NCBI GenBank assembly: GCA_026414705.1
Contig: JAOAIM010000001.1
Coordinates: 19,932-59,193, forward strand
DNA: 39,262 nucleotides
Reading direction: 5' to 3'
Source of the DNA: Verrucomicrobiia bacterium
GTDB lineage: Bacteria > Verrucomicrobiota > Verrucomicrobiia > Limisphaerales > JAOAIM01
Part shown: positions 3,001 through 31,958 of the stretch, piece after piece
Layout of the letters: every line of letters starts with the position of its first letter
How positions within the stretch are numbered: the stretch's first letter is position 1
Program-made: the position numbers and the translations under genes
The notes under the pieces: generated by a model
Told to the model about the DNA's origin: nothing
What the model saw: only the letters and a program-made list of their open reading frames with translations
Databases searched by the model: none

Positions 3001-3286
3001 CGAAGGCGTCGCGGGTGGTTGTGGTGAGCCGGCCCACGCCCAGGCCGGAGGCGTTTTGAATGCCACTGGCGCGGGTGGCGGCCCAGGTGGTCACGCCGGA
3101 CGCGGTTTGGTAGCCGACGCGGTAGCCACCGGTGGCTTTGTCCACAAGCAACACGTCGGTGCGACCATCGCCGTCGAAATCGCCCGCGGCCTGGAATTCG
3201 GTGACCGTCTCATACACGAAAGCACGGGTGGGGAGTGCGGTCAGCCCCAGCGCGAGGAGCGCGATCGCGATTGGGAGCGGAGGTTT
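1..3286 (-). CDS. giant secreted protein with calcium-type repeats (C-terminus beyond window)
   Basis: The minus-strand frame is open from the left edge to about 3286 and continues beyond the window. I followed it codon by codon over 1-1560 without interruption. It begins with a hydrophobic stretch (PLPIAIALLALGLTALPTRA) typical of a signal peptide, followed by an FG-GAP/VCBS-like segment with the calcium loop DFDGDGRTD. Further on comes a chitobiase-like C-terminal-type module. Two blocks resembling thrombospondin type-3/EF-hand loops follow: DSDNDGVPDFVE with DSDGDGYSDLEE near 1500-1590, and DSDLDGNLLVD with DWDGDGYQNLQE near 130-270. Such loops bind calcium in known families, so an extracellular or outer-surface location is inferred; no enzyme domain is seen. 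There is no ATG, GTG or TTG in frame in the two dozen codons before the hydrophobic segment, and the frame continues back into the repeat at 3345. The stated end is therefore only where protein-like sequence starts. Confidence 0.8.
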
Positions 3287-3344
3287 GCAACGGGCTCGCG
3301 CGGCGATCGAGAATTTACAGTAAGGCCGATGGGGAGTGAGCGAC

Positions 3345-3393
3345 GGCTCGCGGACTGCCAGTCCGCGATACAGCAGGCTGCCAGCCTGCGCTA
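3345..3393. repeat. twin-hairpin repeat unit, copy 1
   Basis: Two adjacent perfect hairpins: CGGACTGCCAGTCCG at 3351-3365 (6-bp stem, GCC loop) and GCAGGCTGCCAGCCTGC at 3373-3389 (7-bp stem, GCC loop), joined by GCGATACA and followed by GCTACAA. The same layout, with different but still self-complementary stems, recurs elsewhere in the window. Confidence 0.85.
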
Positions 3394-3407
3394 CAAGGCG
3401 GGCGAAC

Positions 3408-3710
3408 GCGCTCACCCTCACCCTCACCCTCTCCCTCAAGGGCGAGGGAACAGTCACAGAGCGCTCCTGGATTGCTCGGGCGCATGCCGGCTCTCCACGC
3501 GCGGCCCGCGTTCTCCCTCTCCCAGCGGGAGAGGGCCGGGGTGAGGGAGAGCCAACCGCGCGCCGTTGAGTTCCCGCGCTCAGGAACGCCAGCGGTAACC
3601 CAAGTTTCCAACCGCTCGTAGCGCCGATTGAAAATCTGCGGTGAAGCGGATTTGCAATCAGCGACGGCTCGCGGACTGCCAGTCCGCGATCCAGCAGGCT
3701 GCCCACCTGC
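3408..3710. repeat. 303-bp direct repeat, copy A
   Basis: This segment matches 7374-7676 at a constant offset of 3966 bp, with no gaps and about a dozen substitutions by eye. It contains a CCCTCACC-rich block, the palindrome CCCTCTCCCAGCGGGAGAGGG core at 3515-3535, a 120-bp less repetitive part and a twin hairpin at 3672-3710. The two copies bracket the frameshifted secreted-protein gene. Confidence 0.9.
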
Positions 3711-3734
3711 GCGACAAAGCGGGCGAACCCGCGC

Positions 3735-3870
3735 ACCCTCACCCTGACCCTCTCCCTCAAGGGAGAGGGAACAGTCACAGAGCGCTCCTTGATTGCCCGT
3801 GCGCGTTCCGGCTCTCCGCGCGCGGCGCGCGTTCTCCCTCTCCCAGCGGGAGAGGGCCGGGGTGAGGAAG
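3735..3870. repeat. CCCTCTCCC palindromic repeat block
   Basis: A further copy of the first half of the 303-bp repeat. It has the ACCCTGACCCTCTCCCTCAA block near 3741, a shared linker (ACAGTCACAGAGCGCTCC) and the palindrome CCCTCTCCC-AGC-GGGAGAGGG at 3836-3856, followed by CCGGGGTGAGG. Confidence 0.85.
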
Positions 3871-3916
3871 AGCCGGTCGGTTCGGATTGAATTGCCACGC
3901 TGGCGAGCGTTGTCCG

Positions 3917-4031
3917 TAGCGCAGGTTTCCAACCTGCCGTATCGCCGACTTCCAGTCGGCAAAGCGCAGCGGCCGACACGACGGCCAGCGGGTTGGAAAC
4001 CCGCGATACAGCAGACTGGAAGTCTGCGCCA
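3917..4031. repeat. two inverted twin-hairpin units
   Basis: Four hairpins: GCAGGTTTCCAACCTGC (3921-3937), CCGACTTCCAGTCGG (3945-3959), GCGGGTTGGAAACCCGC (3988-4004) and GCAGACTGGAAGTCTGC (4011-4027). The first pair is joined by CGTATCG and preceded by GTAGC. The second pair is joined by GATACA and followed by GCCACA, i.e. the same unit in the opposite orientation. Loops are TCC in one orientation and GGA in the other. Confidence 0.85.
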
Positions 4032-4086
4032 CAGGGCGTGATGCCGACTTCGGGCGCGCCGCACACTGAGAATGCCAATTTCCGCG

Positions 4087-7000: not shown

Positions 7001-7366
7001 GAGCGCCTCAAAGAGCGCGTGAAGGTCCTGTTCAAGCTTGAGCGGGTCTTGGCCGAGATTTTCAGCGCGGCGTAACAACGGTTCAATGTTGCGCGGGTCG
7101 GTTTGCTGGAAGACAACGCTCACGCGCTGGAACGGCGCGGTCGAAGCGGCGTCGCCGGGCTTGGCATAAATGGCGTAAGTGCGACCGAGCACCAGGTTTG
7201 GGCTGCTACCCTGCCAGTAAAGGTAGGCCCAGTGGCGGCCGGCGGTGTCCTGAATGGTCGTGCCCGCGGTCGAGATGAGGTTGTCGAGCCCCTCCTGGGC
7301 GCGAGCGGCCGCGAAGCAACACAGCGCCAGAAACGCGGCGGCGATGAAGGCGCGAACTGGAGGCAT
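4087..7366 (-). CDS. large secreted fibronectin-III-like protein, frameshifted near C-terminus
   Basis: A leftward gene for an exported protein of about 1,092 residues. The start is the ATG at 7366, because it begins a clean signal peptide (MPPVRAFIAAAFLALCCFAA, cleaved about ARA-Q). Upstream codons in the same frame only decode the repeat. The body is mostly beta-type sequence with several fibronectin-III-like modules (for example FLRVIWDQNTNAVD and YWVYRWTN) linked by proline-rich stretches; no catalytic motif is seen. At 4542-4545 (GGGG on the plus strand, CCCC in the gene) the frame shifts by one base. Upstream protein reads AVVVVGSA in one frame and continues sensibly only in another (LFTSNSAVQVAQRPQW), ending at 4087. 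Removing one C restores a single frame. This is either a sequencing or assembly indel or a real mutation making a pseudogene. It may act with the neighbouring secreted genes, but no shared function can be shown. Confidence 0.8.
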
Positions 7367-7743
7367 CGAAGCGGCGCTCACCCTCACCCTGACCCTCTCC
7401 CTCAAGGGCGAGGGAACAGTCACAGAGCGCTCCTGGATTGCTCGGGCGCATGCCGGCTCTCCACGCGCGGCGCGTGTTCTCCCTCTCCCAGCGGGAGAGG
7501 GCCGGGGTGAGGGAGAGCCAACCGCGTGGCGTTGCGTTCCCGCACTCAAGAACGCCAGCAGTAACCCAAGTTTCCAACCGCTCGTAGCGCCGATTGAAAA
7601 TCTGCGGTGAAGCGGATTTGCAATCAGCGACGGCTCGCGGACTGCCAGTCCGCGACCCAGCAGGCTGTCGGCCTGCGCGGCAAGCCGCAGCACCGAGTTC
7701 GAATTGTCCTTGTACGCTGCTCGTTCCATGCGCTGCGTCCGGT
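7367..7743. repeat. repeat-filled gap including 303-bp direct repeat copy B
   Basis: The gap is occupied almost entirely by copy B of the 303-bp repeat (7374-7676). It includes the palindrome core at 7481-7501, a perfect hairpin CGGACTGCCAGTCCG at 7638-7652 and a decayed partner GCAGGCTGTCGGCCTGC at 7660-7676. No gene or obvious terminator is seen between the flanking minus-strand genes. Confidence 0.85.
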
Positions 7744-10700
7744 TCAATAGTCCACGTCCCACGAGCCGTTTTCGTAGGTGATGCCCACGCTCTTGCTGAA
7801 CTCGATGCAGAAGGGGCACGGGCCGACCTTGCCGCTGAGGTTGCCGCGTCCGTTGAAGCGCAAGTTGTCGCCGCTCTTGACGCCGACCATTTTGACCTCA
7901 CCCCGGATGGTGACGATGCAGAGCGCCTCGCCGAGCACACCGGCTTTCATCACCCCGCCGTAGGTCGGGCCTTCGAGGAAATAAAACGCGCCCGCGCCGA
8001 TGCCCGCCGAGATGTTGAACAGGCACGAGGCCGGAATGCCCAACACGGCTTCGGAGATCGGGATCCAGCCCTCGCCATACAGGTAACCGCCGGTGAACGG
8101 CGGGCTGCCCAGCACCGAGGCCACATCCGGATCAATGAGCCGGATCGGGTCGAGGGTGCAGGTGCGCCCGAAGAAAATGCCGCCGGACAGATCGTAGTTC
8201 TGGATTTTGATGCCGGCCAGGGCGGCGAGGTAATTCTCGTTGAGGCCGAAGGCGACCGACGCGCCAAGCTTGTAAATCTTGAACGACTCGAAGTCCAGGC
8301 CGCCGCGCACATTGAGGCTGCCGGCCATGCCGAGCGGTTTGAAGGGGCTGTTTTGGAAGCTGAACTTCGTGGCCACGTCGGCGCGCAGGTCGGGGCTGAT
8401 CCAGTCCAGCTTGACGTCGTTGGCGCCGAGGGTGACCTCGGTGGCGCTGTCACCGCTGAAACCGCAGCCGGGTGTGGCCGAGGAATCCAGTTCTTTGATG
8501 ATCAGGTAGGCGTTGAGCTCCATTTCTTCGGGCACGCGCCATTGGAAGCGGCCGTCGAGCCGGAGCATTTTGAGCGAGTCGCCGTTGATGAGGGCGTGGC
8601 CGTCAATCTGGCCGGCGCCGATGACCTCGCTCAGGTCGCCCAGGGCGTTGTTGATGGTGTTGTCCAGCTCGGCGAGCGTCTGGCCGATGAGATCGCGGAT
8701 GACCTGATTGATCTGTTGGAAGACGCTGTCCACCGCTTCGCGGAAGAGCGCGTCGAGGTCGTAAAGCCGCTGGCGCAGGGAGACCTGGAGGCTGGCGGCG
8801 ACGGCGGTTTCGTAGAAGCGCTCGCGGATGCGGGCGCGGATCATCTGCTTGAGTTCCTCGGCGGTGAAGTGGACGAACGGGTCGTCAATGGAGTAGTTCA
8901 GGCCGTTGAAGAAGGCGCGGATTTCAGAGCTGGCGCGGGTGGTGGCGTTGGTCAGTTCGGCGGCGGCGCTTTTGAGTTTGAAGTCGAGTTCCTGGGCGAA
9001 TTCCTGGCCCAGCGCGACCTTGGCGCGCACTTCGCCCAGGGCGCGTTGCACCTCGTTGAGCGTCTGAACGATCTGCTGGAGGGACGGCTCAATTTCCCGC
9101 ATGAAGTTGCTCAGGTGCGGTTCGGCGACGGCGTTGATGAATTCGTCGGCGAGCTGGCCGACCAGTTCACCGATGAGTTCTTTGACGATGGGCCGCTGGC
9201 CGTCCACGATGCGGAGCAGGCCGTTTTTGACCTCGCCCAACGGCACGCCGTTGGTGCCCTTGGAGATGGTGCCGGTGATGGCGCTGATGGCGTTGGTGAT
9301 TTCGTCGAGCGTGTCGGAGAGTTCCTTGAGCAGGCCCAGCGGTTGGGCGGCGCCGTCGGCCAGGAACATCAACTGCCGCGAGACGTTGGTGAGCACCGCG
9401 CCCGCGCCCGAGCCGATGAGGTAGTTGGTGAGGACCTGGCTGACACGGTCGGGGAACTGGCCCTTGGCGGTGGGCGGCAGGGCGGCCCACTCGGCCTGCA
9501 ACCGGGCATAGAGCGCGTCCACGGTCGGGTCCACCGTCCGGCGCAGGACCTCGTCGAAAAACCCGTCGAGCGTGGTGGCCAACATGCGGTCGAGATTGGC
9601 CGCGCCTTCAAAGAGCACGTCGCGCACCTCCTGACCGGCGGCGTTGGCCAGGGCTTGTGCGACGCCCAATTGCTCTTCGACCGCGTTGAAGACCATGTTG
9701 GCGAGGTTGATCCGGGGCAGGCCGTCGTATTGGATGCCGAAGTCCAGCGATGCGTTGGCCGGGTCCATGTAAGTGATCTCGTGCTGGACTTTGAAGACGA
9801 GCAGGTCGTTGGTGAGGCTGAAGAGGGAGCGGAACGTGCGCGTGCTGTCGTTCCAAAGCAGCGGATAATCAAAGTCCACCACGCCCAGCCAGAGGCGCTG
9901 CGCGCGCGGATGGTATTGTTGGCCGGGGTTGTTGCGGTAGTTGGCGAGCGTGACGCCGGGCGGGAAACCGAAGTTGTTTTCGTCAAAGTAGGCGGCATTG
10001 AAAAAGTCGTTGCCGCCGACGCGCCAGCCGTAATTGGGATTGCTGCTGCCCGCGCGCGGCCAACCGCCGGCAAGCCAGATTTGCGGCGCGGGCGTGACGC
10101 CGTTGGTGCGGGCGGCGGTGTGCAGGTGCACTTTCACCTCGTCGAAGAAGGGCACCTTCATCTTGCCGGCGATGTTGAGGAAGCCCACCGTCGGCAGGTT
10201 GGCGGGATTGCTGTTGGAGTAGCTGCTGTAGTAGGCGTCGGCGACGGGTGTGACGGTGTAGGCGGTGTTGGTCGGGCCGCGCAGTTGGAAGCGGCTGGGC
10301 AGTTTCAGGCGCGAATCAATGCCCGCCAGGCCGAAGGATTTGGGGATGAGGTTGCCGTTGGTCTGGAAGCCCAGGAAGCCGGTGAGCGGTTGATCCACGT
10401 GGCTGGCGTAACCGCGCACGCCCACGACCAGCGAGCCTTTGCCGGGATTGCATTCCTCGCCGGGGTTGCTCTTGAACTGAATGGCCAGCGGCTCGAAGTC
10501 GGCGTTCCACCAGGCCAGTTTTTTGAAGGTCTGACTGGAGGGCGCGACCTTGGCGCCGAGCAACGCGCCGACGCAACTGAACTTGAGCTCCTCAAAATCC
10601 AGCGTGAAGTCGGACGGATACGGCACGCGGAGGTTGCCGAAGGTGCGCGAGTCCACGTTCTGGCTGTCGAGGAACGCGACGCCGTAGTTGGCGAATTCCA

Positions 10701-13674: not shown

Positions 13675-13894
13675 CTTTGTGAATGCAGCCGTGCAGCAAG
13701 CGGGGCCGGCGTGAACACAACCTGATTTAACGCGACGAGCTTCCATTCCAAGCAAGCGCGAATCGTTGCATAACTCATAATCATCTCGCCGCCCGGATGC
13801 AAACGGAAATCGTTTCCAGCAGGCACCCTTCTCGCCCAGCCCGGCCGCGACGCGTCTTCGGGCACCGCACGGTACCGCCGCTCTGGCAAACCCA

Positions 13895-13933
13895 CCGACT
13901 GCCGGTCGGCCACGTCGCAGATTTCCAATCTGC
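13895..13933. repeat. twin-hairpin repeat unit
   Basis: CCGACTGCCGGTCGG (13895-13909) and GCAGATTTCCAATCTGC (13917-13933), followed by GCTACG. The second hairpin has the stem GCAGATT/AATCTGC, differing from the other copies by paired changes that keep complementarity. Confidence 0.8.
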
Positions 13934-13941
13934 GCTACGCT

Positions 13942-13997
13942 CCCACGCTCCGCGCTCTGACGCTCGGACGCTCCGAAGCTCTCACGCTCCAAGCTCC
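13942..13997. repeat. 8-bp tandem repeat (ACGCTCNN)
   Basis: About seven imperfect units with an 8-bp period: CACGCTCC, GCGCTCTG, ACGCTCGG, ACGCTCCG, AAGCTCTC, ACGCTCCA, AGCTCCG. It directly abuts the 7-bp tandem repeat that follows. Confidence 0.75.
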
Positions 13998-14268
13998 GTT
14001 CGATGTTCGATGTTCAATGTTCGTTGTTCGATGTTGCGCAGCGCGCCCGCCCGCGCTCCCTCTCCCAGCGGGAGAGGGCCGGGGTGAGGGAGAACGCATC
14101 TTGAGCAAGAGGGTATTCAAATGCTTGCGGTGCCTCACCCTCACCCTGTCCCTCTCCCTCGAGGGAGAGGGAATTGCCCAAGCCGCCCAAGGGCAACGCG
14201 ATGACCCGACCCGTGGCTCACGCGCGCTCCCGTTCAAAGTTCAAAGTTCAAGGTTCAAAGTTCAAAGC
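13998..14268 (+). repeat. composite repeat module, copy 1
   Basis: Ordered blocks: a tandem GTTCGAT-type array (13998-14036), a 21-bp palindrome CCCTCTCCC-AGC-GGGAGAGGG (14058-14078) plus GGGTGAGGGAGAACGC, a CCTCACCCTCACCCTG block with a 24-bp perfect palindrome centred on CTCGAG (14149-14172), and a tandem GTTCAAA-type array (14232-14268). The same blocks in the same order, with divergent spacers, appear reverse-complemented at 17351-17620. Confidence 0.88.
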
Positions 14269-17054: not shown

Positions 17055-17140
17055 AGGCCCAGAGCGCGCTCTCACCTCTGACTGCGGTTCCCGGAATCTC
17101 GCCGAAATAGGCCCTTGCCCCGCGTGCGCCGAGGCGCAGC

Positions 17141-17179
17141 GCAGGTTCCCAGCCGGCCGGTTTGCCGACCTGGAGTCGG
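17141..17179. repeat. degenerate twin-hairpin unit
   Basis: GCAGGTTCCCAGCCGGC (17141-17157) and CCGACCTGGAGTCGG (17165-17179) keep the spacing and loop sequence of the hairpin family. The first has lost full pairing and the second retains a CCGAC/GTCGG stem. Confidence 0.55.
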
Positions 17180-17350
17180 GGCATTCAAAGCGGTAACAAA
17201 CCGCCGCGCTTCAAAACGGCGTTGCAGTGGCGGAGCGGCCCGGCACCGGCGAGGCCTTTGGAGTGGACCAGCCTGCTGGCGCTTGAACACGCGGACGTTG
17301 TGTCAGATTCGGCCGCCAATCAAAGCGCCGACGCCAACAAACAGAACCCC

Positions 17351-17620
17351 GAACTTTGAACCTCGAACTTTGAACTTTGAACGGGGCCATGCGTGAGCAC
17401 CGGGCGAACAAGCGCGCGAATGGCGGCGTGGGCAGTTCCCTCTCCCTCGAGGGAGAGGGACAGGGTGAGGGTGAGGCCGCCGTGAAGATTTGAGCGCCCC
17501 GATTTCACGACGCGTTCTCCCTCACCCCAACCCTCTCCCGCCGGGAGAGGGAGCGCGGGCCTGCGCGGGTTGGGAAACATCGAACAACGAACATCCAACA
17601 TCGAACATCGAACGACGAAC
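17351..17620 (-). repeat. composite repeat module, copy 2 (inverted)
   Basis: This is the reverse-complement layout of 13998-14268: a GAACTTT-type tandem array (17351-17382), the 24-bp CTCGAG-centred palindrome (17437-17460) with GGGTGAGGGTGAGG, the palindrome CCCTCTCCC-GCC-GGGAGAGGG (17531-17551), and an ATCGAAC-type tandem array (17578-17620). Blocks are nearly identical to copy 1 while spacers differ. Confidence 0.88.
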
Positions 17621-17966: not shown

Positions 17967-20102
17967 TCAAGGGCGCGTGACGCTGAGGCGGTAAAACACG
18001 GCCGGTGAGGAAGGGTCGAGCCGGTTGGTGAAACTGCGCACGGTGCAGGGCAGATTCGTCGCGCCGGCCAGTGGGACAAACCCGAACCACGGGTTGGTGC
18101 TCCACCAGATGCTGTAAAGCCGACCGGTTGCGGTGTTCCAGGAAAGAACGTCGCCCCCGGGGACGGGGGTGAGGGTGAGGCGCAGGCGGTCGTTCGGATC
18201 GTTCGGATTGAGTCCTGCGAGCCAACATTCCCACAGCGGCAGGCCGTTGGCGCCCGGGCGCGTGACGGCGTTTTCGAAGTCGTTCGTGTAGCCGTGCGCG
18301 GCCAGCCACCAGAGCGGTGTGGGATGGTTGGTCGTGAAGATTTCGGCGAACTCGGCGGTGAGGGCGAGGTCGTTGGTGAGGGTGAGGGTGAGGGGATTGT
18401 TGGTGGCGGTGAAGGGGCCGTTCCATCGTTCGAAGCGGAAATACGTTGCGGGCGTTGCGGCGAGTTCGACGGTTGCACCCAGCGGAAAGTTGCCGGCGGC
18501 GGGGCTGACCGTGCCACGCTCCGGCGCGTTGGCGGCGAGGGTCAACTGCACCGTGGGCAGCGTAACGTAACCGGTGATGAAGTATTGTCCGAGGCTGCCG
18601 TAGGCGGTGTAACCGGAGGGCGAAGGGTTGGTGGGATTGCCGGTGGCCGAGTTGCGGATCCAGAGGAAGTAGTCGCCCGCGGGCAGGTTGGTTTGAATCT
18701 GAGCGGTGGTCTGGCCGCTGGGATCGGCGCTGGCGCGCAGGTTGCCGGAGGCGTCGTAAAGCTCCAAGCGCACGTCCAGGTTGCCGCCGCGCGTGCCGGA
18801 GGGCATCATGGACGGTGAGACCGTGAGTTTAACCTGACCCGCGCCGGTTCGGAACGAAAACACGTCCACGTCGGTGTTGCGCTCCAACACGCCCTTGTTG
18901 GCGGGGTTGAGGTTGTCCGGGTCCGTTTCGGGCGTGGTGGCGAGGATGTTGGTTGCGTCGGTGAGGGCCAGCGGCGTGGCTGTGAGCGGGCTGCCGCCGT
19001 GGTCGTCCGGGCTGAAGGCGAGTTTAGCCGAGATGACGGCCAGGTCGTCCTGGGTGTTGTTGGCCATGTGGTATTCGCCCCGGGACCACTGGGTGACGTT
19101 GCGGTTGTAGGCAGCACCCATGATCGTGCCCCAGGAGATCTGGCCGCTGCCGTGCCCGCCGTAGTATTCAGTGCCGTCGGTTTTGCCGTCGTGGCTCAGG
19201 CCCAGGTTGTGGCCGACCTCGTGGGAGACGGCTTCTGCGATGTAAGCTTCGTTGCCGGAGAGGTTGTTGCAGTAAATCCAGGCGGGGCGGAAGTTGGCGA
19301 AGCTGTAAAGCCCGAAGACGTTCACGTAGGCGACGCCGCCGGCGGTGGAGGATGGATTTGCGGCGCCGTTGGCGTCGGTGTTGCGCGTGATGAGGGCGTG
19401 GGCGACGCGGCTGTGCATCGTGGGCGGGCGCTCCGTGGTCACGTCCACGTTGAAGGGCGCAAAGTCCTCGGCGACGCGGCGCCAGATGGCCTTGATGGCG
19501 GCCTGCTCTGCGGCGCTGAACGTGGTGTGGTCGCTGTCCGTGCTGAACGCCACGGCCGGGATCACGGAGCGTCCGAGCGAGTTGTTCCAGGCGGTGTTGG
19601 TGACAATTTCGCCGCTGAAGTTCAGGAAGATGACGTTGGAGGCGCCGGGTCGGCTGTGGAAAATGAGGCTCGCGGGAAAGGGACTGACCGGCAGCGGGCT
19701 GCTTTGGGATTCATCCGCGCCGCCGGCCGGGCTTCCCTGAGCTGCGGTTCCGGCCTCCGAGGCCGGGGCGTCGTCAGAGGCCGGGGCGGTGGCGGGGATC
19801 GGAAAATGGTCCTCGTAGAAGAGGTCGCCTTTTGCGTCGGCGCGCAGCGAGCGCAAATCAAGCTCGGTGAAGTGGAAACCGCGCAGGTTGTCCAGTGCGC
19901 GCTGTCGGACGGCGGCGGGGAGCGATTCGAGTCGGGCGCGAAACGGGCCGGGTGGGAGGTCTTCGAGGCGTCGGAGCGCGCCGGCTGGGAATTGGCGCGG
20001 GCCGGGAGCGGCGGGCTGACCGAAGGCGGCGCACGCGAGAAAAAGAAAGGTTGCGATTGCGAGAGCGCGCAACGCTGCAACCTGGTTTCGTCCTGCTTGC
20101 AT
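17967..20102 (-). CDS. secreted metzincin-type metalloprotease
   Basis: A 711-residue exported protease. Start ATG at 20102 is chosen because it opens a signal peptide (MQAGRNQVAALRALAIATFL, then FLACAAFGQ). The zinc site HEVGHNLGLSHDG has H294, E295, H298 and H304 followed by Asp, the HExxHxxGxxHD form of reprolysin-like metzincins. The Met-turn TIMGAAY follows. A bacterial pre-peptidase C-terminal-like beta domain (DVDVFSFRTGAGQVKLTVSP) comes next. After it is an InlB-B-type repeat (GTVSPAAGNFPLGATVEL, FERWNG), and a C-terminal module ending VFYRLSVTRP that resembles the tails of many verrucomicrobial secreted proteins. Family knowledge gives zinc-dependent extracellular proteolysis; the substrate is unknown. 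An intrinsic terminator lies 229 bp upstream, so the gene has its own promoter, which I could not place. Confidence 0.93.
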   Translation of the reverse strand: MQAGRNQVAALRALAIATFLFLACAAFGQPAAPGPRQFPAGALRRLEDLPPGPFRARLESLPAAVRQRALDNLRGFHFTELDLRSLRADAKGDLFYEDHFPIPATAPASDDAPASEAGTAAQGSPAGGADESQSSPLPVSPFPASLIFHSRPGASNVIFLNFSGEIVTNTAWNNSLGRSVIPAVAFSTDSDHTTFSAAEQAAIKAIWRRVAEDFAPFNVDVTTERPPTMHSRVAHALITRNTDANGAANPSSTAGGVAYVNVFGLYSFANFRPAWIYCNNLSGNEAYIAEAVSHEVGHNLGLSHDGKTDGTEYYGGHGSGQISWGTIMGAAYNRNVTQWSRGEYHMANNTQDDLAVISAKLAFSPDDHGGSPLTATPLALTDATNILATTPETDPDNLNPANKGVLERNTDVDVFSFRTGAGQVKLTVSPSMMPSGTRGGNLDVRLELYDASGNLRASADPSGQTTAQIQTNLPAGDYFLWIRNSATGNPTNPSPSGYTAYGSLGQYFITGYVTLPTVQLTLAANAPERGTVSPAAGNFPLGATVELAATPATYFRFERWNGPFTATNNPLTLTLTNDLALTAEFAEIFTTNHPTPLWWLAAHGYTNDFENAVTRPGANGLPLWECWLAGLNPNDPNDRLRLTLTPVPGGDVLSWNTATGRLYSIWWSTNPWFGFVPLAGATNLPCTVRSFTNRLDPSSPAVFYRLSVTRP

Positions 20103-20330
20103 CGGCTCTGGCGGTCGTGGCGCGGCCTGAAAGCGGACAGTGGGGCTGTTCGCCTTCGGGGCACCGCAAGCCGGTGGCTTGGCCAAAGGGCCACCGGCGG
20201 TCGCCCAGACCGCTCAAAGCCAGAGTCGTTCCACCCTTGAAGGCGGGATTGGTTGGGGGGCCGAGGGTCGTCCGAGCCGCCTCAGCCGCCTGAGACGATG
20301 GGGTCAGGCCAAAGCGGGCATCGGATGGCT

Positions 20331-20371
20331 AAAAAAATGTCCCTGCCCGACCTTGCGGTCGAACAGGGACA
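20331..20371 (-). terminator. intrinsic terminator of the candidate RNA gene
   Basis: Read on the minus strand: TGTCCCTG (20371-20364) pairs with CAGGGACA (20345-20338), enclosing CGACC-GCAA-GGTCG, and is followed directly by seven T residues (20337-20331). This is a strong rho-independent terminator. It points leftward, so it ends a transcript coming from 20372 or beyond, where there is no protein gene. Confidence 0.9.
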
Positions 20372-21180
20372 AATTGGGGGTGGGAGTGCGCCACGCTCTC
20401 TTTCCCGTGCCGGCATTAGGCGCTCCCGCCGCAGCGGGGCTGCCGGCTTCCCGACGCCATTCTCCACGGCAAGCGGAGTCATCGGCCTCGTGGCAGGGCC
20501 GTCCGGCGCCTTGCGGCCCCGGATTATTGAGTGAGGCTTTTCAGCTCGCTTGGGCTGGTGGTTGCGCCACCGGCTTGCGAACCAGGTCAAGACACGGCTG
20601 CGGTGACGTCCCGCGTCTTAACCGCTTGGCATTGGGCGGCCACCGCTTTTGGCGGTGCGTTGACCAAGGCCACGGGTCTCGCCTCTTACCTCTCAGGTTG
20701 TCTTTCGCCCGCAGTCCAGCGGTGTCTGTTTGGACATCGCCGGCGTTCGGAAGCTTTTCACGCGGCCTGCCGAGCCGTCGTGGTCTTCCCGACGCTGACG
20801 CTCCGTTTGTCCGCCTTTCGGCGGTTTTCGCTGGGCGGACCCATGAGCTGGAGTCCGCCGGAGTCGCCTGCGCCGTGCTGGTGCGCAGTAACAACCGTGT
20901 GCCCTCCGGGCAACTGCGATTCGCTCAAGCCCGAAACCAGCCTGAGCTACTTGACTCGACTCGGAGCGGCTTCTGATCGCTCCTTGCCGCCGAGCCCCTG
21001 CTTCGCGTCGCTGACACGCGCGAACGTGCCAGAGGGGCTGGTGAATCCTGCCTTCGTCCGCCCGACCTTGCGGTCGGGTTACAAAGGGGTCGGGCCAACC
21101 AGCCTGACCCAACCTTTCCCCGGTCACCCGGGCTTATCTCGAACCGAGCGGCTGCAGCCTCGCGGTTGCAACCACCGATT
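20331..21180 (-). ncRNA. candidate large structured RNA (about 0.85 kb), unidentified
   Basis: No frame on either strand gives protein-like sequence, but the region is tiled with hairpins. Pairs seen include 20409-20447 (GCCGGCA/TGCCGGC), 20464-20493 (CCACG/CGTGG), 20589-20619 (nine pairs with one G-U in the minus-strand RNA), 20641-20657 (CACCGC/GCGGTG), and 20811-20824 (CCGCC-GAAA-GGCGG in the RNA). Others are 20884-20918 with a nested 20900-20912 stem, 20923-20947 (eight pairs), 20993-21039 with nested 21011-21032 (seven plus eight pairs), and 21061-21078 (CCCGACC-GCAA-GGTCGGG). Several loops are GNRA tetraloops on the minus strand, the same strand as the terminator. I looked for the conserved cores of RNase P RNA, tmRNA, SRP RNA and group I/II introns and did not find them. 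The 5' end is not defined; it probably lies between 21100 and 21230. Strand and 3' end are the secure parts. Confidence 0.6.
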
Positions 21181-21239
21181 CTGTTCTTTCAATGAACTGC
21201 CAACAGCTTAACCCGATTCGCTCGCCTGACAACAAATTC

Positions 21240-21415
21240 ATATCCACAACTTGTTCACGGGTTGGGAGGCAGCGCGCGTTTGTGCGAACAGCCGTTTTGC
21301 CGCGCAATTCGCAAGGTTTCGCGCCTGCTGCGCCAAGTTATCCACTGCAAAAACGGTCTTCCCGGATCGCCCTGTGAAAAAGTTTTTTGTGGAGGTCGCG
21401 CGATTTTTTTTCCGC
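21240..21415. other. DnaA-box-like cluster beside A/T tracts
   Basis: Near-consensus DnaA boxes (TTATNCACA): ATATCCACA at 21240-21248, TTATCCACT at 21338-21346 and TGTGAAAAA at 21373-21381 (reverse strand), each one mismatch off. A weaker TTGTTCACG lies at 21251-21259. Two short A/T-rich runs follow at 21376-21388 and about 21403-21411. The stretch is gene-free, between the candidate RNA and a small basic gene. It could be a replication-origin element, a DnaA-regulated promoter or chance. Confidence 0.35.
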
Positions 21416-21548
21416 GCTCGACGATCGCACGACGCCCCGCCAGGTCGCTCGCTGCGAACGTGTGAGCAGCGACGCAGCCGGAGCGGGAGCGGATCGCGGG
21501 GCGGGGCGCGCAGTGCGGTGTCGGGCCTGCCGGCGACGCGCGGGCTCA

Positions 21549-21584
21549 GAAAAAAACAAGCCATCCGCATGGGGATGGCCTGTT
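21549..21584 (-). terminator. intrinsic terminator after the small basic gene
   Basis: On the minus strand AACAGGCCATCC (21584-21573) pairs with GGATGGCTTGTT (21566-21555), twelve pairs including one G-U around a six-base loop, and runs into seven T residues (21556-21550). It lies 25 bp past the stop codon at 21609. Confidence 0.92.
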
Positions 21585-21608
21585 ATGACGGGCTTAGTTT
21601 GGGGCGGT

Positions 21609-21863
21609 TTACGCGCTTTGCTGGGGTTCGCCCACCGGTGCGGGCTGGGTTTCAGCCTGCGACGCGGGTGGTGGTTCCGGAGCGGGCTGGGTTTCGGTGG
21701 CCGGTTTGGCCTCGGCTGCGGGTTTTGTTTCGGCAACGGGCTCGGGCTGTTCGGTGGTGGCGGCGGCTTTGGCGGCGCGCCGGGCTTTCGCAGCCAGCTT
21801 TTTGCGTTTCCAGTAGGCCTTGCGGCGACGGCGTTTGAGAACTTTGTTGTATTGCCTGGTCAT
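21609..21863 (-). CDS. short, highly basic protein with Ala/Pro/Glu-rich tail
   Basis: An 84-residue protein. Residues 1-32 (MTRQYNKVLKRRRRKAYWKR and on through KKLAAKARRAAK) are extremely Lys/Arg-rich with an aromatic YW pair. Residues 33-84 are a low-complexity tail of Ala, Glu, Pro, Thr and Gln in an approximate PEPxAETKPA repeat. No known family is recognised. The charge pattern suggests nucleic-acid or ribosome binding by the head with a flexible acidic tail; this is inference. It is real rather than a shadow because it has its own strong terminator just after the stop and lies 46 bp from a divergently transcribed lipoprotein gene. It reads toward the DnaA-box-like cluster and the candidate RNA, but the terminator separates them. 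Confidence 0.8.
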   Translation of the reverse strand: MTRQYNKVLKRRRRKAYWKRKKLAAKARRAAKAAATTEQPEPVAETKPAAEAKPATETQPAPEPPPASQAETQPAPVGEPQQSA

Positions 21864-21909
21864 ATCGAACTTTACATCCCAATGCGGTTACGATTTTGTG
21901 GGCCACACT

Positions 21910-22470
21910 ATGTTGGCGGGGGCGGTGCGGTTCAACATCTATTTGGTTTTGGCGTTGGCGCTGGTGAGCAACGCGGGTTGTCGCAGCGCCGGCAGCGGGC
22001 GGGGCAAACCGGTGGCCACGCTGCGTGTGCACGTGGAGGCGGCGCCCGAGGAAGCGCGCATGAGCCGGGAGATTTCGCTGTTCCGCTCCAACCCATTGTC
22101 CCTGCGGGTGCAGCGGGTGCCGTTGCTTGACGAAGCGAGCGTGGCCGAGGCGCGGGTGGTGGAGGACGCGCTGGGCGGATTTGCGCTTGAGATTCAGTTG
22201 AACACGCACGGGACGATGCTGCTGGAACAGGCGACAGCGACGCACGGGGGCCGGCGCCTGGCGATTTTTTCCGAGTTCGGCAAAAAGCTTTCCAACGCGC
22301 GCTGGCTGGCGGCGCCGTTGATCCAACGGCGGGTTGAAAACGGGCTGCTGCGGTTTACGCCCGACGCGACGCGGGAGGAGGCGGAGCAAATCGCCGCCGG
22401 ATTGAATCGCGTGGCCGAGAAACTCGGCCATCGCGAGCGGCCCGGCAAACGCAAGCCGTCCACCGATTGA
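21910..22470 (+). CDS. lipoprotein-like protein with SecD P1-head-like domain
   Basis: A 186-residue exported protein. Start ATG at 21910 is chosen because it begins a lipoprotein-type signal (FNIYLVLALALVSNAGC). The residue at -3 of the cysteine is Asn rather than Leu, so lipidation is probable but not certain. The C-terminal 90 residues (ARVVEDALGGFALEIQLNTH, then ATATHGGRRLAIF, NARWLAAPLIQ and TPDATREEAEQIAAGLNRV) follow the pattern of the SecDF P1 head domain. In SecD this periplasmic domain sits between membrane helices and helps pull proteins out of the translocon. Here it stands alone, without SecD transmembrane helices. Its stop overlaps the start of the next gene (TGATG), so the two are translationally coupled. 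A role at the cell envelope is likely; the exact function is unknown. Confidence 0.8.
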   Translation: MLAGAVRFNIYLVLALALVSNAGCRSAGSGRGKPVATLRVHVEAAPEEARMSREISLFRSNPLSLRVQRVPLLDEASVAEARVVEDALGGFALEIQLNTHGTMLLEQATATHGGRRLAIFSEFGKKLSNARWLAAPLIQRRVENGLLRFTPDATREEAEQIAAGLNRVAEKLGHRERPGKRKPSTD

Positions 22471-23549
22471 TGAGCGCGGCGTGGTCGGTTGCAGGGCGGG
22501 CGCGGTGCGAGCTTCGGGCGCGGTGGCTGAGAAGCGTGGCCGTGCTGGCGTTGCTGGGCGCGGCGGTTCGCGCCCCGGGCCAGCCGTTTCACCTGCCGAC
22601 GGCGAACCGCGCGCTGTTCGAGTCCGGCGGCGGCGAGCGGTTTTTGGTCGGCACCACCGGCAAACCGTGGACCAGTGGGGGCTTTGGTTGCGTGCGTTCG
22701 GACGGGCGGCAGTTTCACGAGGGGCTGGACATTCGCTCAGTGGAGCGAGACCGGCACGGCGAACCGCTCGATCCAGTGCTGGCGACCGCCGACGGGGTCG
22801 TGGCCTACATCAACCGGCGTCCGTCGCTCTCTAACTACGGCAACTACATCGTGCTCGGCCACCGGGTGCACGGGCTGGAGGTTTATTCGCTTTACGCGCA
22901 TCTGCGGGAGGTGTCGGCGGGGCTCAAGCCGGGGCATCCGGTCACGGCGGGCCAGGCGCTGGGCGTGATGGGGCGCACGGCCAACACGCGCGAAGGCATT
23001 TCCCGGGAGCGCGCCCACGTGCATTTCGAGCTGGACCTGTTGGTCAACGAGCGCTTCGAGGCGTGGTTTCGCCACCGATTTCCCAAGCAGCGCAATGATC
23101 ACGGCGTCTGGAACGGACAGAATCTGGTCGGGCTGGATCCGCAACAGGTGTTTCTGGAGCAACGGCGGCTGGGCGCGCGCTTCAACCTGTTGCGGCTGGT
23201 GCAAAACCAGACCGAACTGTGCCGCGTGTTCGTGCGCGCGACGCAGTTTCCGTGGCTGCGCCGTTACGCGGCGCTGGTGCGCTCCAATCCGCGCGCCGAA
23301 CGCGAGGGCGTGGCCGGATACGAAGTGGCGCTCACGTTCAACGGCCTGCCGTTTGAGCTGATCCCGCGCAGCGCGGCTGAGGTCGGCGGCGGCCGGCAGG
23401 CGGCTTCAAAGGGCTCGCGGTTTCTGCTGCTGTCGGTCAATGAGGCCGAAGCGGGGCGAAACCCGTGTGGCAAACTGGTCACGCGTCGCGGCGGGCGATG
23501 GGAGTTGACCTGGCAGGGGCAACTGGCGCTGGAGCGGTTGACGTATTGA
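22470..23549 (+). CDS. secreted M23 (LytM-type) peptidase
   Basis: A 359-residue protein with an N-terminal signal segment (about residues 19-37, [19 protein letters not shown]). Residues 60-195 form an M23 peptidase domain: zinc ligands H83 and D87 in FHEGLDI, H144 in YSLYAHL and the HVH pair H183-H185 in HVHFELDL. All catalytic residues are present, so it may be an active peptidoglycan endopeptidase cutting cross-links in the periplasm. The C-terminal 150 residues are not recognised and may bind the wall or a partner. The ATG at 22470 overlaps the stop of the SecD-head-like gene; a TTG three bases earlier is an alternative. The paired arrangement suggests a joint envelope function. Confidence 0.93.
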
Positions 23550-23634
23550 GCGGGCTGGGAGCGGTCGCCGCACATTTGCGTGGCGGGCACGGCGCGGCGC
23601 GCTATTGTTAGGTCAGGCAGCCATCGGAAGAACG

Positions 23635-24507
23635 ATGAAGCGACTGCATTGGCCAGGGACCGTGGGGCGCGGCGGCAACGGGCCGGCGCGGTGCGGCTCG
23701 AGTGATGAGCCGAATGGCCGGGCGCGGCGCAGGGCCGCGCTGCCGCCGGGCGGGTTCACGCTCGTGGAACTGCTGGTGGTGATTGCGATCATCGGGCTGC
23801 TGGCGGCGTTGTTGTTGCCCGCGCTCAACCGCGCCAAGCAGCGCGCGCTGACGATCAGTTGCCTCAACAACCTCAAGCAACTTCAGCTCTGCTGGCACGC
23901 CTACGCGCATGACAACGAGGACGTGCTGACGCCGAACAATTTCGTCTATTCGGTCGTGGTCGGCGGCACCAACGACGCGCAATTGCACGAGGATGACATG
24001 ACGTGGTGCCGCTCGATCGCGCCGCTGGACGGTTACCCGATCAACGAGGAAACCTCGCTGCTGTTCCGCTACAACCGGAATGCGGAGATTTATCGCTGCC
24101 CCGCCGACCGCTCGACGGTGCGCGACCAGCCGAGCAAGCTTCGCAATCGCAGTTACAACATGAGCAACAGCGTCCATTGCCGGGCCGACAACCATTTCCG
24201 CAAATACAGCGAAATCCGCGTCCCCACGCAGTTGTTCGTGTTCATTGACACGCACGAGGACACGATCTGGGACGCGACCTTCGGGGTGCTGCCGATGGGC
24301 AGTTGGTGGCAGGATTACTGGCTGGATGTGCCGGCCGACCGGCATCAACAGGGAGCGAACCTGACGTTTGCCGACGGCCACGCCGAGCATTGGCGCTGGC
24401 GCGCGCCCAAGCGCGGCCTGCGCATCGGCGGGCGCGCCGCCGGGCCGGACGATCTGGCCGACCTGCGCCGACTCCAACAACACATCAAGGGCGCGGGCGG
24501 GAACTGA
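23635..24507 (+). CDS. pseudopilin-like protein 1 (prepilin-type N-terminus)
   Basis: A 290-residue protein with the type IV prepilin/type II secretion pseudopilin signal: a long basic leader, cleavage G40-F41 in [20 protein letters not shown] and the conserved Glu at mature position 5. A prepilin peptidase would cut and N-methylate it. The globular part has features common to large verrucomicrobial and planctomycetal paralogue families: a conserved [10 protein letters not shown] after the helix, a YRCPADRS motif and a terminal [11 protein letters not shown]. Start ATG at 23635 has GGAAG five bases upstream; a TTG at 23605 is possible but weaker. It probably makes extracellular or periplasmic filaments or surface proteins; specific function unknown. 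It is followed 54 bp later by a second member. Confidence 0.9.
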
Positions 24508-24561: not shown

Positions 24562-25509
24562 ATGAAGCGACCGGATGTGCCGCCAACACCTGCGCGAAGC
24601 GCCCGGGCCGAACGGGAGTCGCGCGGGTCGCAGAGGTTCGACCGCGCGGCGCGTCGCCGGGCGGGCTTCACGCTGGTGGAACTGCTGGTGGTGATTGCGA
24701 TCATCGGGATTCTGGCGGCTTTGTTGTTGCCCGCGCTCAACAAGGCCAAACAGCACGCGCATCGGTTGCAGTGCCTCAACAATCATCGCCAGCTCACGCT
24801 CGCGTGGAAGATGTTTGTGGACGATCAGAACGGGGTGTTGCCCTACGCGAGCCACCACGCCTACACCTTCCCGAATCAACCTTCCGTGCCGTGGGTGACC
24901 GGCAGCCTGGATTTCAACCCGGCCAATCCCTCGAACTGGGACGTGGAGGTGGACATCAAGAAAAGTCCGCTCTGGCCCTACTGCGGGAACAGCACGGCCA
25001 TTTGGAAATGTCCCGCCGACCGATCGGCGGTCACGGTCAACGGCGTGCGCCGTCCGCGCGTGCGCAGCATGTCCATGAACCTGTGGGTGGGTGGCTTTGC
25101 CGGCTACGATGGCGGGCTTTCAGGTGGGAAGAACTGGCCGCTGGGCACATACGGCGGCGACCCGTGGCGCGTGTATTTGAAGTTGTCCGATTTCGTCAAT
25201 CCCGGCCCGGCGCACACCTGGTTGTTGCTGGACATGCGGGAAGACAGCATTGACTGGGGCAACTTTGCCGTGGACATGACCGGTTGGCCGGATCAGCCGG
25301 AGCGAACCGGATTTTACGACCTGCCCGGCAGCTATCATCATCGGGCGGGCGGGCTGTCGTTTGTGGACGGCCACGCTGAAATTCGGCGCTGGCGTGATGA
25401 GCGCACCATGCCGCCGCTTCAGCCCGACGGGTTTGTTCTGGACCATTTTGCTTCGCCCCACAACCCGGACATCGTCTGGTTTCAGGAACGCACCACGCGG
25501 AGGCGATAG
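24562..25509 (+). CDS. pseudopilin-like protein 2 (prepilin-type N-terminus)
   Basis: A 315-residue tandem paralogue of the preceding gene. Its leader ends at G35-F36 in [20 protein letters not shown]. The conserved [18 protein letters not shown] and [11 protein letters not shown] motifs are all present. The C-terminus ends [15 protein letters not shown], closely matching the tail of the third paralogue at 31 kb but not that of its neighbour. ATG at 24562 is preceded by GGAGCGAG. It is likely co-transcribed with the first and convergent with the PpiC gene. Function as for the family: processed by prepilin peptidase and exported; role unknown. Confidence 0.92.
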
Positions 25510-30411: not shown

Positions 30412-31079
30412 GACGACAACGCAACAAAGCGAAAGTTGCCCCGCCAGCGCATCCGCCGGGGCCGCCCGATGCGCCGTTGGGCGTGGCTCAGAATTCTTGA
30501 GCGAACCGTTTGACCGACTTCGACCGACATCTTCTTCAAACCTCCCGCACCCGTGCGGGACGCTCCCTAAGGATTGCCACAGCCTAGACAATAAGCAGCA
30601 GCCTGCAACCGTATTTTTCAACAACGCCCCGTTTGGAGCGGCGGATGGATCAGGCGAGCCACCTCGCCCGGTCGCCCAAACGGTCTTTGTGTGAACTCAA
30701 TCCATCAAAAACGTTTCACACCAATCCCGGCCCAACAACAGAGCGGCCCATTCAACGCCTGACTCATTGCCAACCTTGCGACGCCGACACGATGCGTCCT
30801 CAACGTTGCCAGGCAACGCAGCGGTTCGGCGTCACCCCGTGAATCGTTCCCAACCCACCCCGACTATCCGGAGTCGAACCGTGCGCCTGAAAAATCTGGC
30901 CGCCGCGGCGCCGCCAATGTTGAGCCGATGACTCCCGAACCTGGCCGCGATGTGATCCGAAGGCGTTCGCGTTGCGGTTCCACGATCGCGACGGAGACCG
31001 CCGGTTTGCGCCAAAAAATGTTTGACCCATTTCATCAAAAAAGCTAAGGAAGCCCTGGCAGGTGAGCGAAGTTCTTGCC
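30412..31079. other. 668-bp divergent intergenic region
   Basis: It separates tonB (leftward) from a pseudopilin-like gene (rightward). It contains a hairpin TCCCGCA-CCCG-TGCGGGA at 30543-30560, in the probable leader of tonB, and a near-palindrome CGTTGCCAGGCAACG at 30804-30818. A weak leftward promoter-like pair TTGCAG/TAGGCT lies around 30586-30615. Nothing else was recognised; no protein or tRNA is supported. Confidence 0.5.
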
Positions 31080-31958
31080 ATGAGAACCCTGTGCGTGTCT
31101 GACGATTTTAAGAAAGCGGGCTGCAGCAACACGTCAGGCCCGTGGCCGGGACTGACACCGCCCAAAGCCGCAGGCGCGGGATTCACCCTCATCGAATTGT
31201 TGGTCGTCATTGCGATCATCGCCATCCTGGCGGCGATGCTACTGCCCGCCCTTACCCGGGCAAAGCTCAAGGCCGGCTGCATCGCCTGCATGAACAACGG
31301 ACGCCAGATCGGCATTGCCTGGCTCATGTATGCCGATGACCACAACGGCCACCTGGTGACGGCCTTTAGCAAAGTCGAAGGCGGCTGGTTGAACGGCTGG
31401 CTCGATTACAACGGCGCGACGGACAACACCAACGTAATCCACCTGCGGGAAGGCTTGCTTGGCCCGTATCTGCAAAACATTGCGGTGTACAAATGCCCGG
31501 CCGACCAGAGCCTGAGCGGCCCGCCCAACGGGCGGGTGGGTCTGCCGCGGGTGCGAAGCATCTCGATGAACCAGGCCTTTCGGCGACATGCCCAGGAACA
31601 TTGGAGCGCGCCGCCGTGGCGCATTTACCAAAAGACCGCCGACCTGACCAAACCCGAACCGGTGAACCTGTGGGTGATCATTGATGAAAATCCCGACAGC
31701 GTGAACGACGCGGCCTTTGCAGTTTTCATGGACCTCCCCGGCATGAGATGGCAGGACGGCCCGGGTGTCGGACACGGCGGTGCGTGCGGATTCACCTTTG
31801 CCGACGGCCATTCGGAAATCCGCAAGTGGAGGGATTCGCGCACGATCTCGGGCCTCATGGCCACAACCTACACGCGCCGGTTTTACTACGGCACGATTCA
31901 GGCCAACAACCCGGACATTGTCTGGATTCAGGAACGCACCACAGCCAGGGCCCAGTAG
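31080..31958 (+). CDS. pseudopilin-like protein 3 (prepilin-type N-terminus)
   Basis: A 292-residue protein (298 if the GTG at 31062 is used). That GTG has AAGGA about 11 bases upstream, so the start is not settled. The prepilin signal [20 protein letters not shown] is cleaved after G34. [20 protein letters not shown] and [11 protein letters not shown] follow the family order, and the C-terminus [16 protein letters not shown] nearly repeats that of paralogue 2. It is exported by the pilin/type II route after prepilin peptidase processing; the function is not known. It stands alone between two long non-coding stretches. Confidence 0.9.

Follow-up and report, generated by a model that had tools for sequence, protein, structure and literature searches.

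A MISL RNA gene in a Verrucomicrobiota chromosome, with a probable promoter of its own, an intrinsic terminator and candidate pseudoknots

Judged from its sequence, the locus described here is a MISL RNA gene on the chromosome of a Verrucomicrobiota bacterium, whose order probably includes Limisphaera. It is thus a member of a known RNA family and not a new kind of RNA. It lies on the minus strand of the window, by which we mean the whole stretch of 39,262 nucleotides that was analyzed. Comparison with its relatives showed what is best read as a unit complete in itself, whose RNA is pseudoknotted and subject to strong selection on its structure. Taken jointly, the identity of the locus, the gene boundaries given below and its reading as a free-standing structured RNA are proposed with high confidence. 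Among bacterial RNA families without an assigned function, MISL counts as one of the larger: the literature that we found gives none, and the sole MISL paper among it used the RNA as a chemical-mapping example. The paper describing the family is reportedly that of Weinberg and colleagues from 2017.

Identification of the RNA

Comparison of the window with all 4227 Rfam families gave a single match at gathering scores, RF03079 (MISL RNA), at positions 20383-21139 of the minus strand. The cmscan alignment covers model positions 1-751 of 751, with no truncation, and its score of 561.4 bits is well above the gathering score, 274.6 (E 5.9e-170 in the window). Within positions 20100-21700, MISL was the only Rfam match up to E 1. 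At gathering scores in the whole window, and to E 1 within 20100-21700, no match was obtained for the models of RNase P RNA, tmRNA, SRP RNA and group I/II introns, in agreement with the first-pass annotation, nor for those of OLE, GOLLD, ROOL and HEARO. The source genome contains one copy of MISL.

The first-pass annotation had described an unidentified large structured RNA gene, transcribed from the minus strand toward its own terminator, and had added that such RNAs are often new. The structured gene, its strand and its terminator are supported by our data. "Unidentified" is wrong, because the RF03079 match is full-length and high-scoring; a hit to a known family is what that annotation had itself named as refuting its label, and the scan of all Rfam models that it had recommended returned one. 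With the locus identified as MISL the claimed novelty is removed. MISL consensus helices coincide exactly with the two nested hairpins that it had described, one at 20884-20918 enclosing 20900-20912 and the other at 20993-21039 enclosing 21011-21032. The locus shares the nested structure and the conserved core of RF03079, but the gene adds to the model a 5' hairpin and a variable hairpin, P0 (together about 60 nt), a 3' terminator and the pseudoknots described below.

A protein-coding origin of the conserved region was rejected, as the first-pass annotation had already judged. None of the five ORFs overlapping the RNA region had a Pfam match, and no reading frame is kept among the homologues: the lengths of the near-full-length ones fall about equally often into each of the three frame classes (31/27/25). 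The 871-nt strand folds at z = -9.0 relative to 20 dinucleotide shuffles.

Gene boundaries, promoter and terminator

The RNA gene probably measures about 870 nt, from window position 20331 to approximately 21198/21199 on the minus strand. Of the extent proposed earlier, 20331-21180, the terminator end stands, whereas the start of the RNA is more likely placed near 21198 than at 21180. In a comparison of about 97 loci, read on the RNA strand, the gene reaches some 60 nt upstream of the start of the Rfam model. Going upstream from that start, one finds P0, then a hairpin of the form GUUC-NUUGANA-GAAC, and then, at a fixed distance, a -10 element (TA...T) and a -35 element (TTG). The Rfam model does not include this 5' extension. 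The elements found in the window are the following:

21227-21232, minus strand: -35 element TTGTCA, recognized by position-specific conservation in 91 non-redundant loci and missed by the consensus scan of the window
21205-21210, minus strand: -10 element TAAGCT, separated from the -35 by a 16-nt spacer; position-specific conservation (TA...T)
21183-21197, minus strand: 5' hairpin GUUC-AUUGAAA-GAAC, boxA-like and preceding the Rfam model; it hardly varies among 91 non-redundant loci, and its loop covaries with 21042-21045
21142-21181, minus strand: variable hairpin P0, which separates the 5' hairpin from the Rfam start; 36 compensatory events against 3-14 in the controls, with 87% pairing
20672-20687, minus strand: AAGAGGCGAGACCCGU, among the most conserved stretches (conserved runs 20682-20687 and 20672-20679); AAGAGGC is partly in a stem and the rest is unpaired
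20331-20371, minus strand: intrinsic terminator with a 15-pair stem, a GCAA loop and T7; stem found in the window and compensatory change among relatives

The consensus scan listed no promoter in the window, whose own elements match the consensus weakly, and the case for the promoter therefore rests on conservation. Since the -35 and -10 elements keep a fixed distance from the 5' hairpin, the transcript probably starts within a few bases of it. The terminator is real, with its 15-pair stem, GCAA loop and seven T residues on the minus strand, but its stem, previously described as perfect, is not strictly so, as it includes two G.U pairs. The 14 core pairs of this stem are 95% paired in 94 relatives and all 14 show compensatory change; by a simple test, an intrinsic terminator follows MISL in 84 of 96 loci. 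The conservation of promoter, 5' hairpin and terminator suggests that MISL is a self-contained unit.

Pseudoknots and the 5' hairpin

Covariation was evaluated in 94 aligned sequences and summed within clades, with parsimony events on the tree and helices whose partner was slid by 1-3 bases as controls. This analysis recovered the Rfam helices as well as helices absent from the nested model. In the 94 sequences, 86% of the Rfam pair cells hold standard pairs. Of the 25 highest-ranking covarying pairs after clade correction, 14 are Rfam pairs and several of the others fall in the new helices. Compensatory change in homologues, proposed earlier as a check on the RNA reading, was thus seen both in Rfam helices and in added ones. 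Five pairings of the pseudoknot type were supported; in the RNA numbering, index 0 corresponds to window position 21199 and window positions descend from there. All sides lie on the minus strand, and the partner sides were located by covariation:

Pseudoknot a: loop side 21188-21191 (UGAA) with 21042-21045 (UUCA, within a conserved AUUCAC segment); RNA 8-11:154-157; 100% paired; 6 compensatory events, slid controls 0-1
Pseudoknot b: 5' side 20891-20896 (GGUUGU) with 3' side 20696-20701 (ACAACC); RNA 303-308:498-503; 96% paired; 25 compensatory events, controls 0-7
Pseudoknot c: 5' side 20709-20714 (CUGCGG) with 3' side 20598-20603 (CCGCAG, in a hairpin loop); RNA 485-490:596-601; 93% paired; 26 compensatory events, controls 1-7
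Pseudoknot d: loop side 20491-20495 (UGCCA) with 3' side 20455-20459 (UGGCG); RNA 704-708:740-744; 100% paired; 10 compensatory events, controls 0-1
Pseudoknot e: loop side 21019-21023 (UCGCG) with 3' side 21003-21007 (CGCGA); RNA 176-180:192-196; 97% paired; 14 compensatory events, controls 0-3

With the partner slid by 1-3 bases, pairing in these five helices fell to 11-62%. RF03079 is devoid of them because a nested covariance model cannot represent pseudoknots, and pseudoknots b to e may already appear in the published MISL drawing.

Pseudoknot a joins the loop of the 5' hairpin, UUGANA, to a conserved internal segment of MISL, UCAC. Pair 11:154 was found as A-U, U-A, C-G and G-C; the remaining three pairs are invariant and hence uninformative on covariation. 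As pair 11:154 joins the outermost 5' loop to the internal UCAC, the 5' hairpin is likely to be part of the folded molecule, and constructs beginning at the Rfam boundary would miss one conserved long-range contact.

The 5' hairpin also resembles a transcription signal. The MISL element GUUCAUUGAAA is similar to the boxA of rRNA leaders, which reads GGTCTTTGAAAACTG in the source genome, TGTTCATTGAAAATTG in genome G137 and TGCTCATTGAAAATTG in genome G024, the two kinds of element sharing a UCNUUGANA core, and it sits where the transcript probably begins. A true boxA on nascent MISL could recruit NusB/S10 and render the polymerase resistant to Rho along a long untranslated transcript. Against this, the variable position of the element tracks its internal MISL partner and not the rRNA boxA of the same genome: in family f66 (probably Opitutaceae), for instance, MISL mostly has UUGAUA and the rRNA leaders have UUUGAAA. 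Moreover, the GUUC/GAAC palindrome is missing from rRNA boxA. We consider a genuine boxA unlikely and disfavor it as the sole explanation of the element, whose variation follows the pseudoknot partner; boxA activity is possible as a second role.

A separate observation concerns window position 20680, whose covariation with 20540/20538 (RNA index 519 with 659/661) is among the strongest and involves non-standard pairs beside the GAGGC/GCCUC stem. It is probably due to a tertiary contact.

DnaA-box-like sites upstream of the promoter

Tandem 9-mers, about 11 bp apart, closely precede the -35 element; they read GTGAAYAA and TGTGSATA on the RNA strand and resemble TTATNCACA. In the window they correspond to two sites:

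21240-21248, plus strand: DnaA-box-like site ATATCCACA, with one mismatch to TTATCCACA; the commonest position of strict TTATNCACA boxes
21251-21259, plus strand: TTGTTCACG, the tandem partner of the first DnaA-box-like site; GTGAAYAA is conserved here, from -61 to -54

Of 97 MISL upstream regions, 36% have strict TTATNCACA boxes and 72% have loose ones; in flanking control stretches of these loci the figures are zero and 2.2%. The sites hold a fixed place beside the promoter, with conservation at -62 to -43. The tandem pattern occurs once in the 3.9-Mb source genome, at MISL, and across 14 genomes most of the other matches are MISL promoters, genome G097 having three elsewhere; in most genomes tested the pattern is close to unique. 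MISL is not located at dnaA, the two being roughly 0.16-2.2 Mb apart in complete genomes.

Such placement would allow DnaA, bound at the tandem boxes upstream of the -35, to tune MISL synthesis to replication or growth; we put this forward tentatively, as a possibility that falls short of an even chance. A broader proposal, in which DnaA sets the synthesis of a replication-coupled large RNA, and this RNA serves the Verrucomicrobiota cell cycle as a ribozyme or RNP core pseudoknotted at its 5' end, appears less probable still. The strong enrichment and conserved placement of the boxes could also mean that the locus acts in the first place as a DnaA-binding site, for titration or in the manner of DARS/datA, with the RNA being secondary. 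The strong structural constraint on the RNA would not be expected from a function of the DNA only, and makes this explanation very improbable.

One of the matches outside MISL in G097 is upstream of a gene whose start looks, by eye, like that of parB. Also in this genome, a promoter-like region near 2639243 (locus L208), not at MISL, has the same tandem pair of DnaA-box-like sites together with TTGACG and GATAAAGT. This locus is possibly a second member of a regulon.

Proposed function

Our data suggest that a single RNA of about 870 nt is transcribed from its own sigma-70-type promoter, starting near 21198 and ending at the terminator at 20331. Comparative evidence shows that this RNA folds into a multi-domain structure held by at least five pairings of the pseudoknot type, one of which ties the extreme 5' hairpin to the interior. 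Once folded, MISL may act in trans. The RNA core of a ribonucleoprotein or a catalytic RNA is its most likely role, and to this we give about even chances. The family becomes open to direct experiment now that its gene ends are corrected, its promoter has a candidate regulator that can be tested and its long-range contacts yield exact base-swap predictions.

OLE is, like MISL, a large, ornate, free-standing bacterial RNA, but it belongs to a different phylum, has no Rfam match at the locus and offers at most an analogy as regards function. GOLLD and ROOL, which are RNAs of bacteria and phages, are also large and intricately folded; MISL differs from them in its lack of their Rfam match, of phage or plasmid records and of a symmetric kissing-loop signature. 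OLE, ROOL and GOLLD were seen as homo-oligomers by cryo-EM (PMC12286853), and MISL might likewise form homo-oligomers or cages in which at least one long-range pairing is intermolecular. MISL resembles them in kind by its size and by an elaborate fold with several pseudoknots, and covariation cannot separate intramolecular from intermolecular pairs. Nevertheless, the raiA motif, which is also large, is a monomer, and symmetric kissing loops are marked by a covarying palindromic loop (PMC12286853). No such loop was found in MISL, where no palindromic loop with several palindromic variants stood clearly above its shuffle, and symmetric kissing loops were accordingly rejected. Oligomerization is thus regarded as a rather unlikely alternative to an RNP core or ribozyme.

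Distribution and inheritance

Under strict filters, MISL was found above the cut-off in 102 of the 245 genomes from the order of the source genome and in 28 of 388 genomes sampled across the phylum, and more than 100 relatives are known to us from this order and other classes of Verrucomicrobiota; 14 control genomes had no match. In a FastTree tree, MISL sequences were monophyletic in 11 of the 14 families with several members, which suggests mainly vertical descent. The absences do not seem to be search artefacts: 20 negative genomes still had no MISL after rescoring of up to 22 candidates instead of 3 and after BLAST, and in one of them, genome G006, a congener of three MISL-positive genomes, the flank that these congeners share gives way to unrelated sequence at the place expected for MISL. 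As far as sequence comparison goes, the history of MISL is one of vertical descent with repeated real losses, and the gene is dispensable at the phylum level. A phage or plasmid element was rejected, as no phage or plasmid record matched MISL; a search of viral contigs by the exact core pattern was likewise negative.

Two genomes (G574 and G399) have two full-length copies each. Shortened copies, or copies of the 3' domain only, were seen inside contigs at loci L157 and L158 (model 607-750 and 383-750), the latter with DnaA-box-like sites just upstream, and similar partial matches (model 605-750) occur in G227 and G012. The short copies at L157 and L158 are degenerate copies, assembly faults or minimal variants. 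In family f24 (L118-L121), MISL measures about 942-948 nt and is longer than the consensus by an insertion of nearly 190 nt.

Neighboring genes

The neighbors of MISL differ between families and none is universal, arguing that MISL is not the leader of one particular gene and favoring an independent, trans-acting RNA. A conserved structure followed by an intrinsic terminator is what a structured 5' leader or riboswitch of the downstream gene would present. However, downstream genes are not conserved between families, and in the window the next gene (20186-17967) begins some 145 nt past the T-run and has a reprolysin-like secreted protein as its product. A leader or riboswitch is, of the alternatives weighed here, the one with the least probability, and a very small one.

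No obligate protein partner was found among the neighbors of MISL loci. About 40 loci share an upstream divergent pair of genes, for a lipoprotein-like protein with a SecDF_P1_head domain and an M23 peptidase (window 21820-23549, plus strand), and about 24 loci encode, on the downstream side, a protein read by eye as transcription terminator Rho. In approximately 41 of 98 loci, MISL is directly preceded by the gene for a small, very basic protein (window 21863-21609, minus strand; MGKQYNKxEKRKRRxAYLKRKK, MTRQYNKVLKRRRRKAYWKRKK...), which belongs to no Pfam or NCBIfam family and is possibly a ribosome- or RNA-binding protein. It was present in 17 of the 20 Verrucomicrobiota genomes searched. 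Its role as an obligate partner was rejected, as it occurs in relatives without detected MISL and often far from MISL.

Elsewhere in the window, similar low-complexity ORF translations (LTLSLKGEG, LPLPAGEGRGEG) recur at about 3050-4060, 7100-7940, 13800-14240 and 17100-17600, which suggests a dispersed intergenic repeat in several copies. Three similar pseudopilin-like proteins, alike in their N-termini, are encoded on the plus strand at 23605-24507, 24562-25509 and 31062-31958.
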